Assembly (NCBI RefSeq): GCF_026210795.1 | Contig: NC_089444.1 | Location: forward strand, 610,501-674,500 | Direction of reading: 5' to 3' | Origin: Rhizophagus irregularis | Lineage: Eukaryota > Glomeromycota > Glomeromycetes > Glomerales > Glomeraceae | DNA: 64,000 bases | Made by a program: the position numbers and the translations under genes | In this document: positions 5,969-59,062 of the stretch, piece by piece | Position numbering within the stretch: the stretch's first letter is position 1 | How the letters are laid out: the number at the start of each line of letters is the position of its first letter | The notes under the pieces: model-generated | What the model was told of the DNA's origin: nothing | The model's input: only the letters and a program-made list of their open reading frames with translations | Databases searched by the model: none

Positions 5969-8284
5969 ATGTCTAATAACGTTACTGATAATACAAATGA
6001 GTGGATTAATTGGATTGAAGAATCTATTGCGAAAGAACGAATTAAATATTATGACTATAATCATTTTAATAATATCCAAGAAATCGGGTTTGGAAGTTTT
6101 GGAAAAGTCTATCGTGCAAATTGGAAAAGTTCTCATAGTTATTTAGCATTGAAATCTTTTTTTAATTTCAATGTTATGTCTAAAGAAATTGTTAACGAAG
6201 TAACTATTATATACCATTGTCTTGATACAGTATATTAACGTAAATTATGTCCCTAATCTATTATGATTTTTATTTTGTTAGCTTAAACTTCAGCGTGAAA
6301 TTGATTTTAATGAAAATATAATTCGCTTTTATGGCATTGCAATAGGTATTATAAATATTTCAGACATTATTTTACTGATAAATGAAAAATCTAAACAATT
6401 TTTTTTTTCAAAAGAAAATCAAAGCAACGATTCAAAAAAATATTTTTTAGTGATGGAATATGCTAATAATGGTACCCTTCGAAGCTATTTTAATAGATGC
6501 TTTAAAAACCTTACTTGGAATGACAAATTAAATCTAGCATTTTTCAGTTAGCTAGTGCTATATCATTCTTGCACGATGAAGGGATTGTACATCGTGATTT
6601 GGTAGGTTATTTACTTTTTAACATTTATTAAATTATAGAGTTTGTAAAATTATGTACCTAATATTATTATCATTTTAATTAATAATAGCACTCCAACAAC
6701 GTATTAGTTCATAAGGATACCGTTAAATTGGCTGATTTTGGATTATCAAAAAGGATTGATGAATCATCTAATATTCAATCCAAATTATTTGGAATGGTTA
6801 CTTATATTGATCCACAAATATTTAATAGAAAAAGAGATAGCAATAATCAAATACAATTATATTCATTAAATAAAAAGAGTGATGTTTACAGTATTGGCGT
6901 ACTCTTATGGGAAATATCTAGCGGGCGCCCACCTTTTTGTAATGAACCATATGATGCTGGTTTGGCTGTGGAAATATTACATGGTCTTAGAGAGAAACCC
7001 ATCCCCAATACACCTGAAGATTATATAAAAATATATACTGGTAAATAAAAATAAATTTTAATCATGTTCATAATAATTATATTTATTAATTACAAGTTTA
7101 TTTTATATTTAGATTGTTGGAATAATGAACCAAACAATCGTCCAACTATCAACCAAGTTATTGGAAAATTAAATGCAATTATTTTAAAAGAAAATATCCA
7201 GTTATCAAGTGAACAGCAGAATATTGTTGAAACTCCTAGAAATATTAATAATAATTCATTGCATGAAGAAATGTCCCAACTCATTCAAAATTTCAATAAT
7301 ATGAATACAGAAGAAATGGATACTTCAATATCAGAGAATAATTTTGACAATATGATTAATGAAATAATTTTCCTCCTTGAAAATAATATAGAGGTAGAAA
7401 TGAGAAAAGATGAAATTGTTAATTACCTTAATAATCATAATATAACTTCAAAAGAAATTTATAATTGGTTATTGAATAATCAGAATAATTTAAATTCTGT
7501 TCTTTTACTTGGAGTATTTAATCATTTTGGAATTGAAATTATTGTTAATGAACAAAAAGCATTTGAATTATATCAAAATGCAGCAAATTCAGATAATGCA
7601 CTTGGAATAATTAGTTTAGGATATTGTTACGAAAAAGGAATTGGTACTAATATTAATAAACAAAAAGCATTTGAACTATATCAAAAGGCAGCAAATTTAG
7701 GAAATGCACGTGGAATATATAATCTGGGATATTGTTATCAAGATGGAACTGGTACTAGTATTGACAATCAAAAGGCATTTGAATTATATCAAAAAGCAGC
7801 AAATTTAGGAAATACACTTGGAATGAGTATTCTAGGATATTGTTACGAAAAAGGAATTGGTACTAATGTTGATAAACAAAAGGCATTTGAATTATATCAA
7901 AAGGCTGCAAATTTAGGAAGTACATATGGAATATTTAGTCTAGGATATTGTTATCAAGAAGGAATTGGGACCAGTATTGATGAACAGAAGGCATTTGAAT
8001 TATTTCAAAAGGTAGTTAATTTAGGAAATGCACGTGGAATGAATTATCTAGGATATTGTTATGAAATTGGTATTTGGACCAGTATTGATAAACAAAAGGC
8101 ATTTGAATTATATCAAAAGGCTGCAAATTTAGGACATCATAAAGCTCAATATAATCTTGCTATTATGTATAAAAATGGAGATGGAGTTAAAAAGGACATA
8201 AATCAAGCAATTCATTGGTATACAAAATCTGCTGAACAAGGATTTCAACCAGCTCAAAATCAATTAAATAAATTAATAAATTAA
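5969..8284 (+). pseudogene. Kinase copy A: TKL-type kinase with Sel1 repeats, frameshifted
   Basis: Five exons can be traced by comparison with copies B and C: 5969-6199, 6282-6345, 6415-6601, 6689-7040 and 7113-8284, all with GT-AG introns. The kinase domain has the glycine loop IGFGSFGKVY, the VAIK-type lysine in LALK, HRDLHSNN spanning exons 3/4, DFGLSKR and SDVYSIGVLLWE. The last exon encodes seven Sel1-like repeats of 36 residues (QKAFELYQKAANLG...), which form helical scaffolds. Exon 3 has a 2-bp insertion at about 6540-6547 (GCATTTTTCAG against GCATCTCAG in B), shifting the frame to a stop before the catalytic loop. With the lost TATA box this points to a dying gene. Without the insertion it would encode about 667 residues. 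A sequencing error cannot be excluded. Confidence 0.85.
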
Positions 8285-20428: not shown

Positions 20429-22300
20429 ATGTCTAATAACGCTACTGATAATTCAAATGAGTGGATTAATTGGATTGAAGATTCTATTGCGAAAGAACGA
20501 ATTAAATATTATGACTATAATCATTTTAATAATATACAAGAAATCGGGTTTGGAAATTTTGGAAAAGTTTATCGAACAAATTGGAAAAGTTATCATGGTC
20601 ATTTAGCATTGAAATCTTTTTTTAATTTCAATGACATGGCCAAAGAAATTGTTAATGAAGTAATAATTATATATATTGTCTTACTTTATAATAAACTATT
20701 ATTCTTGATTTATTAATTCTATATTTGTTTAGCTTAAACTTCAGCATGAAATTGATTTTCATGAAAATATAATTCGATTTTATGGCATTACAACAGGTAT
20801 TATAAATATTTAAATATTATTTTAAAAATAAAAAATTCTAAATAAATTTAATTTTTTTCTTAAAAAAAGAAAATCAAAGCAACGATTCAAAGAAATATTT
20901 GTTAGTGATGGAATACGCCAATAATGGTACTCTTCGAAACTATTTAGGCAGATGTTTTAAAAATCTTACTTGGATTAATAAATTAAATCTAGCATCTCAG
21001 TTAGTTAATACTATATCATTCTTACATGATGAAGGAATGGTGCATCGCGATTTGGTAGGATATTTACTTTTAATATTTATTAAAATATACTAAGATTATT
21101 ACCTAACAATTATTATCATTTTAACCAATAATGATAGCACTCTAATAACATATTAGTTCATAAGGATACTATTAAATTAGCTGATTTTGGATTATCAAAA
21201 AGGATTGATGAATCATCCAATATTCAATCAAGATTATTTGGAATGGTTACTTATGTTGATCCACAAATATTTAATAGAAAAAGAGATAACAACAATCAAG
21301 TTCAAATATATTCATTAAATAAAAAGAGTGATGTTTATAGTATTGGTGTACTCTTATGGGAAATATCGTGTGGGCGCCCACCTTTTTGTAATGAACTATA
21401 TGATGTTGGTTTGGCTATGGAAATATTACATGGTCTTAGAGAGAAACCCATTCCCAATACACCTGAAGATTATATAAAAATATATACTGGTAAATACAAA
21501 TAAATTTTAATCATCATGTTCATACTGTAATAATTATATTTATTAATTATAAGTTTATTTTATATTTAGATTGTTGGAATAATGAACCAGATAATCGTCC
21601 AACTATCAACCAAGTTGTTGCAAAATTAAATACAATTATTTTAAATGAAAATGTCCAATTATCAAGCGAACAGCAGAAAACTCCTAGAAATATTATTAAT
21701 AATTCATTGCATGGAGAAATGTCTCAACTTATTCAAAATTTTAATAATATGAATACAAAAGAAATGGATACTACAATATCATCAGAGAATAATTTTGATA
21801 TTATGGTTAATGAAATAATTCTTCTTTTTGAAAATACAGTTATGGAAAGGAGGAAACATGAAATTGTTAATTATCTTAATAATCATAATATAACTTCACA
21901 AGAAATTTATAATTGGTTGTTGAATAATCAGAATAATTCGAATTCTGTTTTTTTACTTGGAATATTTAATCATTTTGGAATTGAAATTAATGTTGATAAA
22001 CAAAAAGCATTTGAATTATATCAAATAGCTGCAAATTCAGAAAATGCACGTGAAATAATTAATTTAGGAACTTGTTATGAATATGGAATAGGGACCAATA
22101 TTGATAAACAAAAAGCATTTGAATTATATCAAAAAGCTGCAAATTTAGGAAATTTTACATCTCAATATAATCTTGCAAATATGTTTAAAAATGGAAGTGG
22201 AGTTAAAAAGGACATAAATAAAGCAATTTATTGGTATACAAAATCTGCTGAACAAGGATATCAAGAAGCTCAAAATAAGTTAAATACTTTAATTAATTAA
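20429..22300 (+). CDS. Kinase copy B: TKL-type protein kinase with three Sel1 repeats
   Basis: Five exons, 20429-20659, 20733-20796, 20870-21054, 21138-21489 and 21570-22300, join in frame with GT-AG introns to give 520 residues. Glycine loop IGFGNFGKVY at 39-48, ATP-binding lysine K62 in LALK, catalytic HRD at 157-159, metal-binding DFG at 176-178, then SDVYSIGVLLWE. All key kinase residues are present, so it should be active as a Ser/Thr or dual-specificity kinase in the cytoplasm. The C-terminal part (from about residue 405) has two full Sel1-like repeats and a divergent last one ending in AIYWYTKSAEQGYQEAQ. Sel1 repeats bind partner proteins. Same structure as A and C, but fewest repeats. 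Confidence 0.9.
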
Positions 22301-25821: not shown

Positions 25822-27942
25822 ATGTCTAATTACTCTAATAGCACTGAACTTACAATTACTGATAATTCAAATGAATGGATTAATTTAATTGAAGAATCTA
25901 TTGCGAAAAAACAAATTAAATATTATGATTATAATCATTTTAATAATATACAAGAAATTGGTTTTGGAAATTTTGGAAAAGTTTATCGAACAAATTGGAA
26001 AAGTTATCATGGTCATTTAGCATTGAAATCTTTTTTTAATTTTAATGCCATGGCCAAAGAAATTGTTAACGAAGTAACTATTATATAATATACCCATGAT
26101 TGTCTTGATACAGTACGTTAACATAAATTATATTCCTAATTTATCATTTTTATTTTGTTAGCTTAAACTTCAGCGTGAAATTGATTTTCATGAAAATATA
26201 ATTCGATTTTATGGCATTACAACAGGTATTATAAATATTTAAATATTATTTTAATAAAATAAAAAATTCTAAATAAATTTTATTTTTTTCTTAAAAAAAG
26301 AAAATCAAAGCAACGATTCAAAGAAATATTTGTTAGTGATGGAATACGCCAATAATGGTACTCTTCGAAACTATTTAGGCAGTTGTTTTAAAAATCTTAC
26401 TTGGATTAATAAATTAAATCTAGCATCTCAGCTAGTTAATACTATATTATTCTTACATCACGAAGGAATTGTGCATCGCGATTTGGTAGGATATTTACTT
26501 TTAATATTTATTAAAATATACTACGATTATTACCTAACAATTATTATCATTTTAACCAATAATAGCACTCAAATAACATATTAGTTCATAAGGATACTAT
26601 TAAATTAGCTGATTTTGGATTATCAAAAAGGATTGATGAATCATCCAATATTCAATCAAGATTATTTGGAATGGTTACTTATGTTGATCTACAAATATTT
26701 AATAGAAAAAGAGATAGCAATAACCAAATACAATTATATTCATTAAATAAAAAAAGTGATGTTTACAGTATTGGCGTGCTCTTATGGGAAATATCTAGCG
26801 GGCGCCCACCTTTTTGTAATGAACCATATGATGCCGGTTTGGCTGTGGAAATATTACATGGTCTTAGAGAGAAACCCATTTCCAATACACCTGAAGATTA
26901 CATAAATATATATACCGGTAAATATAACAAAATTTTAACTAAATACATAATAATTACATTTATTAATTAAAAGTTTATTTTATATTTAGATTGCTGGAAT
27001 AATGAACCAGATAATCGTCCAACTATCAACCAGGTTGTTTCAAAATTAAATACAATTATTTTAAAAGAAAATGTCCAATTATCAAGTGAACGTCCTAGAA
27101 ATATTATTAATAATTCATTGCATGGAGAGATGTCTCGATCTATTCAAAATTTTAATAATATGAATACAGAAGAAATAGAAACTTCAATATCATCAAAGAA
27201 TTATTTTGACATAATTGTTAATGAAATAATTCTCCTTCTTGAAAATACAGAAATGGTAAGGAAAAAGCATGTAGTTGTTAATTATATTAATAACCATAAT
27301 ATAACTTCAAATGAAATTTATAATTGGTTATTGAATAATCAAAATAATTCGAATTCTGTTTTTTTACTTGGAGTATTTAATCATTTTGGAATTGAAATTA
27401 TTGTTAATGAACAAAAAGCATTTGAATTATATCAAAATGCAGCAAATTCAGAAAATACATCTGGAATAGCTAGTTTAGGATATTTCTATGTAGACGGAAT
27501 TGGAACCAATGTTGATAAACAAAAAGCATTTGAACTATATCAAAAGGCAGCAAATTTAGGAAATGCACGTGGAATGAGTAATCTAGGATGTTGTTATGAA
27601 AAAGGAATTGGAACTAGTATTGACAATCAAAAGGCATTTGAACTATATCAAAAAGCAGCAAATTTAGGACATGCACGTGGAGTGAATAATTTGGGAAATT
27701 GTTATTATTCTGGAATTGGAACCAATGTTTATAAACAAAAAGCATTTGAATTATATCAAAAGGCTGCAAATTTAGGAGATTCTAAAGCTCAATATAATCT
27801 TGCAAATATGTATAAAGATGGTAATGGAGTTAAAAAAGACATAAATCAAGCAATTTATTGGTATACGAAATCTGCTGAACGGGAATATCAAGAAGCTCAA
27901 GATGAATTAGATAAATTAATTGATAAAAAGAATATACTGTAA
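25822..27942 (+). CDS. Kinase copy C: TKL-type protein kinase with five Sel1 repeats
   Basis: Exons 25822-26073, 26162-26225, 26301-26485, 26566-26917 and 26990-27942 join in frame to 601 residues. Intron positions and phases are identical to copies A and B. The N-terminus has seven extra residues relative to B (NSTELTI region). The kinase domain has IGFGNFGKVY, LALK, VHRDLHSNNILVHKD across the exon 3/4 junction, LADFGLSKR and SDVYSIGVLLWE. The Pro that follows YVD in the activation segment of A and B is Leu here (YVDLQIF). The last exon encodes five Sel1-like repeats and ends with a longer tail (KKNIL). An active kinase with scaffold repeats is expected; substrate unknown. Confidence 0.9.
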
Positions 27943-47348: not shown

Positions 47349-47784
47349 ATGGACCAACATATTGGTAAAGGTAAAGCATAAATAATAATATAAATTAGAA
47401 TTATTCAAAATTATAAAATTATTTAAACAGACTTGCAATATAATAAAACTAGTTTTGTATGATACCAACAAACCTGAAGGTAAATATAATATACAAAACA
47501 AAGTTGAATTATTAGGTTTTTATTTATTAAAAAAATTTAATTGTAAATATTCATCAAATATAATTAAACCAAATTTACAATATAACAAACTAGTTTCCAG
47601 AGAATTTGAAGCAAGTGGCACTGGAAAATCTAAAGGTATATCAAACAAACTGAAATATTTAATTATATCCCATATAATATGCAAATATAATTTAGACTAA
47701 TTATATTATGTAAAATTTATATTAAATATTTAGCTCGTAAGTTAGTATAATGAATTACTCATTATTTTATTGTATTCCATATAA

Positions 47785-47819
<35 letters not shown>

Positions 47820-50800
47820 TAATCTATTTAATTTAATTAATAATACTGTAGTTGGTAAGTTATCAGTTATTTAAATCTTTAATCCTTTACTTTATTTATT
47901 CTATATAACAATTAAATAATTAAATTCTTTGTTTAAATTACTATTTAATAATTAATTATATTACAGATGGTAAGTTACAATATATATATTATATTTATTT
48001 GTTTAATATTTTACATAATTTAACTAATTATACTCTTAATTTAAATAATTAGATTGTAAGTAATATATAATTTACAGTAGTAATTACTTTTATATTATCT
48101 CCATATCTAACTAATTAATAATTAATAATACTACAGGGTGTAAGTTATATGATAACTGTATTTATATTATTGTATAATTCAAACTAACTAATTTCTTTAT
48201 TTAAAAAAATTATTAAATAATATAGTTGGTAAGTTATTTATTTAATTCTATTATTACTTATTGTTATAATATTTACATATAATTTAAACTAAGTAATTTC
48301 ATTATTTAAAAAATTATTTTATAGATGGTAAGTTATTTATTTAATTCTATTATTACTATTGTTGTATTTACATATAATTTAAACTAACAAATTACTTTAT
48401 TTAAAAAATTATTTTATAGATGGTAAGCTATTTATTTATTTCTAATTTCTATTATTACTTATTGTTATAATATTTACATATAATTTAAACTAACTAATTA
48501 AAAAATTATTACTTAATATAGGGTGTAAGTTATTTATTTAATTCTATTATTACTTATTGTTATAATATTTACATATAACGTAAACTAACTAATTTCTTTA
48601 TTTAAAAATTATTTAATAATATAGGGCGTAAGTCATTTATTTAATTCTATTATTACTTATTGTTATAATATTTCATATAATTTAAACTAACTAGTTTCTT
48701 TATTTAAAATTATTTAATAGAGTGTAAGTTATTTTTTAAATCTATTATTACTTATTGTTATAATATTTACACTAACTAATTTTTTTAAAATTTATTTTAG
48801 TTGGTAAGTCATAAGTTATTTATTTAATTCTATTATTACTTATTGTTATAATATTTTATATAATTTAAACTAACTAATTTCCTTATTTAAAAATTAATAA
48901 ATAATATAGCTCGTAAGTTATTTATTTAATTCTACTATTACTTATTGTTATAAATTTACATATAATTTAAACTAATTATTTTAAAAAATTATTTTATAGA
49001 TGGTATTTTAATTCTATTATTACTTATTGTTATAATATTTACATATAATTTAAACTAACTAATTACTTTATTTAAAAAATTATTAAAAAAAATAGGGAGT
49101 AAGTTATTTATTTAATTCTATTATTACTTATTGTTATAATATTTACATATGACTTAAACTAACTAATTTCTCTATTTAAAAAATTATTAAATATATAGGG
49201 TGTAAGTTATTTATTTAATTCTATTATTACTTATTAATAGTTATAATATTTACATATAATTTAAATTAGTAACTAATTTTTTTATTTAAAAAATTATTTT
49301 ATAGATGGTAAGTTATTTATTTAATTCATTACTACTATTAAATTCTATTATTACTTATTAATAGTTATAATATTTACTTATAATTTAAAAAATTATTAAA
49401 TAATATAGCTCGTAAGTTATTTATTTAATTCTATTATTACTTATTAATAGTTATAATATTTACATATAATTTAAACTAACTAATTACTTTATTTAAAAAA
49501 TTATTAAATAATATAGGGAGTAAGTTATTTATTTAATTCTATTATTAATTATTGTTATAATATTTACATATAATTTAAACTAACTAATTGCTTTATTTAA
49601 AAAACTATTAAATAATATAGGGTGTAAGTTATTCATTTAATTCTATTATTACTTATTGTTATAATATTTACATATAACTTAAACTAACTAATTTTTTATT
49701 TAAATATATAGGGAGTAAGTTATTTATTTAATTCTATTATTACTTATTAATATTAATATTTACATATAATTTAAATTAACTAATTTCTTTATTTAAAAAA
49801 TTATCTTATAGATGGTAAGTTATTTATTTAATTCTATTATTACTTATTGTTATAATATTTACATATAATTTGAACTAACTAATTATTTTATTTTAAATAA
49901 TATAGGGAGTAAGTTATTTATTTAATTTTATTATTACTTATTGTTATAATATTTACATATAATTTAAACTAACTAATTTATTTATTTAATAGATTGTAAG
50001 TTATAAGTTATTTATTTAATTCTATTATAATATTTACATATAATTTAAACTAACTAATTTCTTTATTTAAAAAATTATTTTGTAATTCATTTTAGTTGGT
50101 AAGTCATAAGTTATTTATTTAATTCTATTATTACTTATTGTTATAATATTTACATATAATTTAAACTAACTAATTTCTTTATTTTTTTAATAGATCGTAA
50201 GTTATAAGTTATATATTTGATTCTATTATTACTTATTGTTATAATATTTACATATAATTTAAAAAATTATTAAATAATACAGGGTGTAAGTTATTTATTT
50301 AATTCTATTATTACTTATTGTTATATAATATTTACATATAATTTAAACTAACTAATTTCTTTATTTAAAAAATATTAAATAATATAGCTCGTATGTAATT
50401 TATTTAATTCTATTATTACTTATTTACATATAATTTAAACTAATTAATTTCTTTATTTAATAAATTATTTTATAGATGGTATTTAATTCTATTATTACTT
50501 ATTGTTATAATATTACTAATGTACTAGTAACTAATTTCTTTATTTAAAAATTATTAAATAATATAGGGAGTAAGTTATTTATTTAATTCTATTATTACTT
50601 ATTGTTATAATATTTATACATAATTTAAACTAACTAATTTATTTATTTAAAAAATTATTAAATAATATAGAGAGTAAGTTATTTATTTAATTTTATTATT
50701 ACTTATTGTTATAATATTTACATATAATTTAAACTAACTAATTTATTTATTTAAAAAATTATTTTATAGATGGTATTTAATTCTATTATTACTTATTGTT

Positions 50801-52655
50801 ATCATAATATTTACATATAATTTAAACTAATTTCTTTATTTAAAAAATTATTTTATAGATGGTATTTAATTCTATTATTACTTATTGTTATAATATTTAC
50901 ATATAATTTAAACTAACTTTTTTCTTTATTTAAAAATTATTTTATAGATTGTAAGTTATTTATTTAATTCTATTATTACTTATTATTATTATATTTATTT
51001 GTTAACTGAATTTTTTCATTTAAAAAATATCTGTTACTTTAGTTGGTAAGTTGTAAATTATAGGTTATTATATATATTTATCCAAAAATTAAGACTTAGT
51101 ATATTACATTAAATCCTATTTAATTTTTAGAGTAAGTCATAATTTGCTATGATGTAAATTATAATACAATCTATAATATAATTTTAATTTTTTAAATTTA
51201 TAGATTTGGAAAAAGTGGAAATACAATTATAGATGATTTTATTCTTAAATATGGATTAAAATGGATTCCCTATAACAAATTTAAAAATGTTGAATATCAT
51301 AATGAAGGAGGATTTGGTACTATATACAAAGCTATTTGGTTAAAGAATAATGAAGATAAAGAAGTAATTCTTAAATGCCATAAGAATTTAAATGAAAATT
51401 TAAATGAATTTTTAAAAGAAGTATGATAGTATATTATTTTCTATTTCTAATCTAAATTAAGATTTATTTGTATTAATAAATTGTTATTATTTCTTATAGT
51501 GGGAATATCATACAAGCGTTTTAAGTTCAGATGATATTATATATTTTTATGGATTTACAGAAGATCCAAATACTTCAAAATATATGGTAGTAATGGATTA
51601 TGCAAATAAAGGTGCTTTAAGAGAAAATTTAACAAGAATAGTCAAAAATAATTGGAATCAAAGATTATATATGCTGTACGGAATTATTTCTGGACTTAGT
51701 AGGATACATGAAGAAAAACTTATTCATTGTGATTTTCATGATGGTAATATTTTAAATCATAATGAGAATAAAATTTATATTAGTGATTTAGGATTATGTC
51801 AACCTATAAAATCATTTTTGAAAGAGTATGATATTCATGGTATTATACCATTTATGGCTCCTGAAGTTTTAAGAGGCAAATCTTATACTTCAGCTAGTGA
51901 TATATATAGTTTTTCTATGATTATGTGGGAACTTACATCTGGGGTACCACCATTTAATAATAGAGCACATGATATTCAACTTAGTTTAAGTATTTGTAAA
52001 GGTGAACGTCCTGAAATTATTGAAAATACTCCACAATGCTATATAGATTTAATGAAAAAGTGTTGGAATGAAGATCCATCAGAAAGGCCATCTTCTAAAG
52101 AAGTAATAAATATTGTTAAAAAATGGATTTTCCGACCTTATAATAATGAAGTCAGTGAAAAATTAAAAAACGACATTATGGAATTTATAAATGTACCAAT
52201 TGGGCAGCATAATGATCTTGCTATTGAATCTCATCCTAAAGCATGTTATACAAGCCGCTTGCTTGATTTCACTAGTAAGAAATTGAATGAAATTCTTGAA
52301 AGTGAAAATTTGGATAATTATATTATTAAAGATTTGAAATCATTAGGTATGCAATAAAGTGCATATAAAATTTAATTTTGCAAATTATTTATGTGAAAAT
52401 AATTTACTTATTTGATTATTTTGATATTAAAGCAGATGAAAATACTAGTGAAAATTTGAATGAAATTCTTGAAAACGAAGATTCACAAGCTAGTGTAAAA
52501 GTAAATGAAATGCTAGTAAGTGAAAATTTAAATGATTATATGATTAAAGATTTGAAGTCATTAGGTATGCAATATAGTACATATATAATTTAATTTTGCA
52601 AATTAGTTATATAAAATTAATTTTATTTTATTATGTTAAAACAGATGAAAATTAA
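47349..52655 (+). CDS. Kinase gene E with a shattered, microexon-encoded N-terminal half
   Basis: Proposed exons: leader 47349-47370 (MDQHIGK), 47453-47479 and 47594-47635, all ending in phase 1. Then 35 three-nucleotide exons and a one-nucleotide exon (separate entry), kinase exons 51204-51420 and 51500-52346, a tail cassette 52436-52564 and a last exon 52645-52655. The sum is 1401 nt, 466 residues. The kinase part starts SGNTIIDDFI, has GGFGTIYKA, an ATP-binding lysine in VILK, the catalytic loop IHCDFHDGNIL (HCD for HRD) and DLG in place of DFG, then SDIYSFSMIMWELTSG, as in many AM-fungal TKL kinases. The 129-nt cassette encodes a second copy of the tail motif LNEILES..NLDNYIIKDLKSLG and is phase-neutral, so it may be optional. 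The kinase exons are secure. The leader and microexon part is inference from splice signals and phase. There are no Sel1 repeats here. Confidence 0.6.
47734..51131 (+). repeat. Tandem array of splice-site-bounded 3-nt units (candidate microexon array)
   Basis: Units of about 85-118 bp, with interior text such as TATTTAATTCTATTATTACT and ATATAATTTAAACTAACTAA, each end in an AG acceptor, three bases, then a GT donor. Triplets by start: 47734 CTC, 47852 TTG, 47967 ATG, 48053 ATT, 48137 GGT, 48226 TTG, 48325 ATG, 48420 ATG, 48522 GGT, 48625 GGC, 48721 AGT, 48801 TTG, 48910 CTC, 49000 ATG, 49096 GGA, 49199 GGT, 49305 ATG, 49409 CTC, 49517 GGA, 49621 GGT, 49712 GGA, 49812 ATG, 49906 GGA, 49993 ATT, 50096 TTG, 50194 ATC, 50283 GGT, 50388 CTC, 50476 ATG, 50567 GGA, 50671 AGA, 50770 ATG, 50859 ATG, 50948 ATT, 51043 TTG. 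A single A at 51131 lies between TTTTTAG and GTAAGT. Donors are GTAAGT except GTAAGC (48423), GTATGT (50391) and GTATTT (after 49000, 50476, 50770, 50859). Most units keep CTAAC/CTAAT about 40 nt before the AG, like a fungal branch site. Confidence 0.85.
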
Positions 52656-58622: not shown

Positions 58623-59062
58623 ATAGACACTAGGGATGGCAACGGTCACGGTCATTAACCGGTTATGACCGGTCATGACCGTGACCGATATCGGTCGGTC
58701 AAAGACCTCTGACCGACCGTTTGACCGACCGGTCTGACCGACCGGTTAACCGACCGTTTGACCGACCGTTTAACCGATCCTGAAAACGTTTGCGAAACGT
58801 AATTTAATAAAAAAAATGTTTCGCAAACGTTTTTTTAATTATTTTAATAGAAAACGTTGCGAAAACGTTTTTTATTAAGTATTTCAATTAAATTACGTTT
58901 CGCAAACGTTTTCAGGATCGGTTAACCAGTCGGTCAAACGGTCGGTTAACCGGTCGGTCAGACCGGTCGGTCAAACGGTCGGTCGGTCGGTCAAAGGTTC
59001 TTGACCGGTTATGACCGACCGATGACCGACCATGACCGACCGTTGCCATCCCTAATAGACAC
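58623..59062. mobile_element. 424-bp hAT-like foldback MITE
   Basis: The element 58631-59054 begins TAGGGATGGCAACGGTC and ends GACCGTTGCCATCCCTA, matching the hAT terminal consensus (YAGGGNTGGCAA). ATAGACAC flanks both sides (58623-58630 and 59055-59062), the 8-bp duplication expected of hAT. Arms are long inverted copies filled with GACCGACCGGT repeats, and the loop carries AACGTTTGCGAAACGT motifs. GC content is far above its surroundings. No coding capacity. Confidence 0.9.

Follow-up and report, generated by a model that had tools for sequence, protein, structure and literature searches.

Genes assembled from many very small exons are known from animals: the MEG families of Schistosoma carry numerous very short exons of 3-81 bp (PMC10526429), and the bicycle genes of aphids, fast-evolving putative effectors of these insects, contain many small internal exons (about 17 on average), nearly all in one phase, with more than 100 microexons in the megacycle gene (PMC9168663). 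A one-base exon is spliced in Arabidopsis APC11 (PMC4674806) and a 3-bp exon in Drosophila hth (PMC7392893). In fungi, NLR repeats with high internal conservation (Podospora and others) are homogenised within and between family members and carry hypervariable codons that are under diversifying selection and tied to non-self recognition (PMC4986451). Here we describe a gene of the arbuscular mycorrhizal fungus Rhizophagus irregularis, found in a window of 64,000 nucleotides (NC_089444.1, positions 610,501 to 674,500 of the forward strand), in which 35 consecutive three-nucleotide units, each framed by an acceptor and a donor, lie between a short leader and a protein kinase. Judging from the genomic sequence of this and related loci, the array very probably consists of mostly constitutively joined one-codon exons that would encode a hypervariable segment in front of the kinase.

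As modelled, the gene has the following parts, in coordinates of the window.

47349..47364, + strand, leader exon 1: start codon, MDQHI plus one nucleotide, ending in phase 1; in frame in the joined coding sequence.
47453..47479, + strand, leader exon 2: 27 nucleotides, phase 1-1; from the joined coding sequence.
47594..47635, + strand, leader exon 3: 42 nucleotides, phase 1-1; from a pattern match and the joined coding sequence.
47734..51045, + strand, array of 35 three-nucleotide exons: units of about 100 bp with GT...AG introns.
51131..51131, + strand, one-nucleotide exon A: TTTTTAG/A/GTAAGT, changing phase 1 to phase 2.
51204..51420, + strand, kinase exon 1 (FGKSGNTIIDDF...): found by tblastn.
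51500..52357, + strand, kinase exon 2 (HCDFHDGN, SDLG) with the TAA stop: from the joined coding sequence and Pfam.

Joining the leader, the array, the one-base exon and the kinase exons gives a single open frame of 1266 nucleotides (421 amino acids) that closes at the TAA stop, and the phase-1 peptide of the array reads LDDWFDDGWQFAHGRYARRWNGNFDRSHGKNDDF. The donors of the array are GTAAGT in 29 units, GTATTT in four, and GTAAGC and GTATGT in one each. A branch-point-like CTAAC, CTAAT or CTATC lies near the 3′ end of 29 of the 37 introns in the array chain of the window and of 861 of the 985 introns in all loci. The first-pass annotation of this DNA had claimed 35 acceptor-triplet-donor units between leader and kinase exon, 29 GTAAGT donors, leader exons that all end in phase 1 and a reading free of stops across the array; our unit listing recovered the same 35 units, the donor count fits the sequence, and the remaining two claims are borne out by the joined coding sequence. 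That listing returned 37 candidates between 47734 and 51131, comprising the 35 triplets (from CTC at 47734 to TTG at 51043), the A at 51131 and a TA at 48078, the last of which was dropped from the final model as spurious for its weak donor and its wrong spacing, 25 bp past the preceding unit.

While the array itself stood up to analysis, it proved not to be peculiar to the gene in the window, as a 1501-base piece of it matches at least 38 clusters in the genome (146.7 Mb searched, the window counted), a lower bound that reflects our own clustering of the matches listed. We fetched 34 stretches (L003, L004 and L009-L040), two of which (L036 and L037) merely extend L003 and L004, leaving 32 loci and, with the window, 33 sequences examined. 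Kinase exon 1 was matched by tblastn in 31 of the 32 fetched paralogous loci and in the window, giving 32 kinase-bearing loci; L022, with an array and no kinase in the fetched stretch, is excluded from all kinase-anchored counts. L041 stands outside the parsed set, L042 was used solely for the comparison at the P0006 kinase locus described below, and five clusters (C17:4192320, C20:1593467, C24:2022915, C24:2604484 and C25:1658590) were left out of the reading. L021 and L022 (C7:2566000-2581500) are neighbours that hold array pieces and only one kinase between them; they may be a single gene, extended to about 12 kb by sequence inserted into the array. The 100 listed places with exact units, which reach the fourth contig, include eight further clusters of at least two units each, all eight within about 2 kb upstream of a kinase-exon match on the same strand. 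In the 32 kinase-bearing loci and these eight coordinate-checked clusters, every array lies upstream of this kinase family.

The arrays were parsed by dynamic programming with scores for donor, acceptor and branch-point sites, all exon lengths from 1 to 40 nucleotides being treated alike. For the window and 22 loci, 23 sequences in total, this parse returned 581 three-nucleotide and 17 one-nucleotide exons among 604 internal exons. A later parse of 32 loci, which permitted long introns and GC donors, returned 1051 and 34, respectively, among 1160 exons, the remainder including leader exons, spurious exons in 12 loci without a leader anchor, insertion stretches and a few odd units. The number of three-base exons per locus read ranges from 11 to 49. 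Genome-wide, the pattern TAG-N3-GTAAGTTATTTATTTAATTCTATTATT occurs 960 times exactly, 1666 times at one mismatch and 2403 times at two, and its reversed control does not occur at all. Other spacings, counted over N2-N6 with a slightly shorter pattern and with exact counts taken from the top of mismatch-sorted listings, gave four exact matches for N2, one for N4, none for N5 and five for N6, two of the latter (TAGTAGGGA) being equally readable as N3. This prevalence of length 3 (960 against 0-5) upholds the earlier argument that exact triplets go beyond a plain minisatellite. One-mismatch counts for N5 (723) and N6 (158) were set aside, the matches listed being mostly N3 units out of register (TATAG, TAATAG) and the others shifted reads of GTAAGTTATAAG. 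A few array introns open on GCAAGT rather than GT; L010 has eight of these, and L026 and L033 have one apiece.

Pattern matches, the window counted, place an ATGG... exon akin to leader exon 1 in 14 of the 32 loci, leader exon 2 in 12 and leader exon 3 in 15. Leader exon 3, a tandem peptide repeat (EFEESGTG-like) at the other loci, measures 42-129 nucleotides and is in all 15 cases divisible by three, open and keeps phase 1; in another five loci a shorter leader, with 19 nucleotides to the donor, leads in phase 1 straight into the array. A one-base last unit is present in all 32 kinase loci (A in 30, T in two), in agreement with the first-pass proposal that this exon resets phase 1 to phase 2, and a direct splice from a phase-1 leader to the kinase exon would run into a stop in every one of the 32. 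The leader-anchored arrays sum to the required 1 mod 3 in 14 of 20 loci, in 10 of these purely by triplets and the one-base exon. At the last unit (51131 in the window) two rival donors lie four bases apart, A/GTAAGT and AGTAA/GTAATA, letter for letter in 23 of the 32 loci; use of the five-base AGTAA would put the kinase out of frame except under a phase-0 reading of the array. If the array is read in phase 1, each of its codons takes its first base from the end of one unit (z) and its other two from the start of the next (x and y).

Such codons leave a trace in the order of the units. In a sample of 1028 triplets in 52 runs, only one of the 976 neighbouring phase-1 junctions forms a stop, compared to a mean of 23.8 stops (standard deviation 3.8, minimum 12) when unit order was shuffled within runs 5000 times. 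As block duplications could distort the shuffles, we added a spacing test in which z of unit i is paired with xy of unit i+d for d from -6 to +6: d=+1 gives 1 stop in 976, and the eleven other spacings give 12-30 (1.65-3.07%). A stop constraint that reaches across introns of about 100 bp, and only between ordered immediate neighbours, matches what a translated joined product predicts and supports the earlier view that the triplets code in phase 1. Phase 2 was rejected as the reading, as the leader frames require phase 1 and phase 2 contains 152 junction stops; phase 0 contains four stop triplets. The first-pass annotation had also suggested that skipping of any subset of units could yield very many isoforms, which found no support as a selected feature: junctions that omit one unit (d=+2) contain 17 stops in 924, which is the background rate. 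Products missing one unit are thus unprotected, which favours inclusion of the whole array and disfavours skipping as its selected purpose.

The triplet is also the most variable part of the unit. Over 63 bases the two highest position entropies are those of z (1.96 bits) and x (1.87 bits), with y at 1.19; no unit departs from the AG or from the G of the donor, and the donor is near consensus throughout. One identical 50+50-base context recurs in 45 copies at 11 loci around 11 different triplets, and a 25+25-base context in 155 copies at 29 loci around 23. Of 9211 pairs that share identical 30+30 flanks, 80.1% differ in the triplet, against 0.3-21.7% at 19 other offsets; this comparison is dominated by a single 128-copy context (when it is left out, the figure is 37.9% of 1083 pairs) and flatters the triplet also because nearer offsets hold the triplet inside their flanks. 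We therefore used the fairer control windows at -45, -36, +36 and +45, with flanks excluding the triplet, and took means per context, upon which the triplet differs in 38.6% of pairs and the four controls in 4.7-10.5%; for contexts common to several loci the values are 53% and 5-19%, respectively. Masked exact matches of 313 bases (L010 and L018) and 402 bases between different loci cover three units whose triplets are all different.

Non-overlapping matchings between different loci (means of 20) contain, per matching, 109 pairs without a triplet difference, 30 that differ in x only, 3.9 in y only, 52 in z only, 38 in x and z, 13 in x and y, 7 in y and z, and 47 in all three. Codon positions 1 and 2 thus change and position 3 rarely does so alone, an excess in the direction that diversifying selection would be expected to produce. 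An exact full-length twin at another locus exists for 142 of the 968 array introns, and the single kinase intron has a median identity of 85% and is identical in 2 of 496 pairs, although this comparison is rough, as an array intron can be paired with hundreds of others. We read these data as units that are homogenised between loci with triplets that change rapidly, and diversifying selection is the most likely cause of the triplet diversity. It is conceivable, though on balance doubtful, that a targeted mutational or conversion process, and not just selection on ordinary mutations, exchanges the codon by itself and leaves the surrounding intron identical; this would amount to a genome-wide system of hypervariability, with about a thousand or more one-codon exons spread over dozens of kinase genes, and would create a lineage-specific recognition repertoire.

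Where leader exon 3 is present, the encoded segment mostly starts with NDWW, NDWF, DDWW or DDWF; its end merges into EFGKSGN-like sequence, and its middle is unconserved among the paralogues read. The 976 junction codons include 123 for D, 119 for R, 90 for W, 78 for F, 77 for Y, 73 for N and 58 for G, a composition that would fit binding interfaces. Judged by eye, the leader is hydrophilic and acidic. Pfam places the kinase domain of the joined protein at residues 98-340 (PF07714, 3.3e-44; PF00069, 3.7e-39), and its solved relatives by sequence include EGFR, MLT, CTR1, MST4 and TAK1; the predicted product is a Tyr/Ser-Thr-like protein kinase. In all 32 loci the matched stretch of kinase exon 2 is an open frame with H.DFH and DLG-type motifs. 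The kinase protein matches listed are mostly from Rhizophagus irregularis, the others being from R. diaphanus and R. clarus.

Besides the dominance of one context in the raw pair figure, several observations weigh against one-codon exons that are regularly joined and rapidly diversifying. The variability is uneven, with differences in 20% on average for AT-led contexts, and some contexts are almost invariant (for example ATG in 20 of 21). The y base is almost limited to T or G though C would be silent (AT 321, AC 1), suggesting that a constraint besides coding, splicing or mutational, contributes. Units of 2, 4 or 5 nucleotides, such as the frame-breaking GA, GT, AG, GG, GATT, GGAA and TATT, occur in L010, L012, L016, L017, L029 and L034; they may be pseudogenes, assembly errors or real exceptions. 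The published DAOM197198 assembly, with 32 chromosomes as in the genome used here, is reported at Q36.27 in a study that also presents Nanopore RNA reads (PMC10234402). Six of the 20 leader-anchored loci (L009, L023, L028, L029, L033 and L035) are out of frame as parsed, odd or inserted stretches being responsible in several, the last units of L004 parse oddly, 12 of the 32 loci lack a leader anchor and were parsed with spurious exons, and L014 carries the single phase-1 stop. The paralogous kinases have a median ratio of nonsynonymous to synonymous substitution rates (dN/dS) of 0.66 over 496 pairs (median dS 0.14), which is below 1 yet not low and exceeds 1 in 46 pairs; the kinases thus appear to be kept, but fast-evolving.

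The public protein models also speak against the array being translated. P0001 and P0067 (OCT59_007934) begin with MIFGKSGN, after the array, and omit the leader and the array altogether, which suggests that they start from an ATGAT exon within the last intron. Predicted phase-1 array peptides from 13 of the 32 loci were found in none of the public proteins (1058 candidates, none at E<=10). At its other end, P0001 splices onward from about 52345 instead of reading to the stop at 52357 and runs on through a stretch like window positions 52436-52564. That 129-nucleotide exon-like stretch, in phase 1-1, resembles the end of kinase exon 2 (NEILE...DLKSL), and the C-terminus of the kinase may contain repeated symmetrical exons too.

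The starts of P0001 and P0067 would fit a non-coding minisatellite whose splice-like motifs lie in one long intron or 5′ of the genuine start and never enter the mRNA, as the ATGAT exon would then follow a skipped array; the array also shows up in tandem-repeat detection. A minisatellite is very unlikely given the 1 stop in 976 phase-1 neighbour junctions against 12-30 at other spacings, the prevalence of length 3 throughout the genome, the presence in all 32 loci of both the one-base unit and a stop upon direct leader-kinase splicing, and the greater variation of the triplet compared to the control windows. We give even less credence to a phase-0 reading that starts at ATG ATT GGT triplets within the array, treats each triplet as a codon and ends with AGTAA as the last unit, although it would account for some odd public N-termini. 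By eye, six of 120 listed public proteins (P0003, P0006, P0015, P0076, P0104 and P0111) begin like phase-0 triplet chains, most of them with low-complexity G/I/M/L sequence, and all but P0111, which is looser, end in LSK before the kinase, as an AGTAA exon would give; the AGTAA/GTAATA donor is moreover present letter for letter in those 23 of 32 loci, and phase 0 meets only its four stop triplets. P0015 belongs to R. diaphanus, a hint that arrays may exist in that species too. However, the leader frames require phase 1, and the avoidance of stops at neighbouring junctions is seen in phase 1 alone and would not arise from a phase-0 reading. Phase-0 array peptides from 13 of the 32 loci had no public protein match among the 8000 candidates sharing most words, and the six N-termini matched none of the arrays in hand, the sole match (P0034 with L015) lying within the leader. 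At the P0006 kinase locus, a phase-0 translation of the array gives GGILGLGLGGLL, unlike the P0006 N-terminus. If transcripts underlie the odd N-termini, one would have to reckon with a last unit that is used in alternative ways.

Two further explanations accept the triplets as exons. The architecture may have the purpose of generating isoforms in which triplets are skipped in many combinations, an idea that gains from the symmetry of the triplets (all are phase 1-1, so that skipping any of them keeps the frame) and from the fact that tiny exons are often spliced inefficiently in other organisms. We regard it as improbable, as selection leaves the junctions of skipped products unprotected (17 stops in 924) and as the AG and donor G are invariant with donors near consensus throughout. 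The other concerns origin only and is compatible with one-codon exons: copies of one intron may have been inserted into an existing coding stretch, leaving near-identical introns around different codons. Introner-like elements are known in fungi (PMC4457414), and the 142 of 968 array introns with an exact twin at another locus would fit such an origin, but random insertion would not be expected to land every three bases in one phase, and we hold there to be little chance that the arrays arose in this way.

The unit anatomy, exon length, frame and recurrence, the avoidance of stops and the excess variation of the triplet, all read from the DNA, are what would be seen if pre-mRNA splicing in the cell joined the three leader exons, the 35 triplets, the one-base exon and the kinase exons, with near-constitutive inclusion, and if the product were translated. 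The resulting protein would carry a short acidic leader, a segment of some 10-50 residues in which D, R, W, F, Y and N abound, and then the kinase domain. Units would be homogenised or conserved in their introns as many triplets diversify. Because the DNA of a unit is almost all intron, duplication, loss and exchange would mostly break in introns and change whole residues in frame, and because codons straddle units, new unit neighbours would also create new residues. The variable segment may set specificity upstream of the kinase, for example in self/non-self or partner recognition. If this is correct, 35 three-base exons and a one-base exon spliced consecutively in one transcript would be a new extreme for the spliceosome, a hypervariable coding region would use its introns as substrate for exchange, and arbuscular mycorrhizal fungi would gain a candidate set of variable signalling proteins. 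Public models of the gene in the window, and probably of many of its relatives, would then be wrong at the N-terminus.

The window contains other repeats. Tandem repeats of 108 bp and coding type (AFELYQKAA...), which are probably Sel1-like, lie at 7529-8134, 21989-22196 and 27388-27777. Others at 58704-59042, also in tandem but richer in GC (TGACCGACCGTT and similar), surround AACGTTTGCGAAACGTT-like palindromes and are possibly a mobile element.

In comparison with the systems described above, the arrays share with the MEGs a run of many consecutive very short exons that are mostly divisible by three. MEGs, however, encode secreted parasite proteins from exons of mixed lengths with introns of up to 5 kb (PMC10526429), unlike the fungal array with its nearly uniform three-nucleotide exons, its tandem unit of about 100 bp and its downstream kinase. 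By Pfam the product is a kinase and not a secreted protein of the MEG kind, a comparison made without a signal-peptide program or MEG sequences. The internal exons are mostly of one phase (phase 1), as in bicycle genes, which is a resemblance only, as product and kingdom differ; tandem one-codon units are not described in the available part of that work (PMC9168663). The tiny exons of APC11 and hth are single, whereas those of R. irregularis come in arrays. Introners are marked by dispersed insertion into unrelated genes, often with target-site duplications or terminal inverted repeats. They resemble the array introns in being near-identical and present in many copies, and the accessible text on them describes neither tandem arrays nor a three-nucleotide spacing, the word tandem being absent from it (PMC9860276). 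In the literature searched, with preprints and most subscription papers outside it, we came across no account of a protein segment that is encoded one residue per exon by tandem repeats. In their evolutionary behaviour the kinase arrays are closest to the fungal NLR repeats (PMC4986451), both having near-identical repeats with variable codon positions, albeit unevenly between contexts in the arrays. A Pfam scan of the joined protein for NLR domains (NACHT or NB-ARC with WD, TPR or ANK) returned kinase-type domains only, and the two systems differ in what is conserved, as far as the source describes the repeats: part of the protein in the NLR repeats, and the intron in the kinase arrays, where the variable codon is the whole exon. 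As splicing alone, the arrays are the extreme of a known kind; as the compared systems, as far as seen, do not have one codon per tandem exon, we rate the array system as new in kind.

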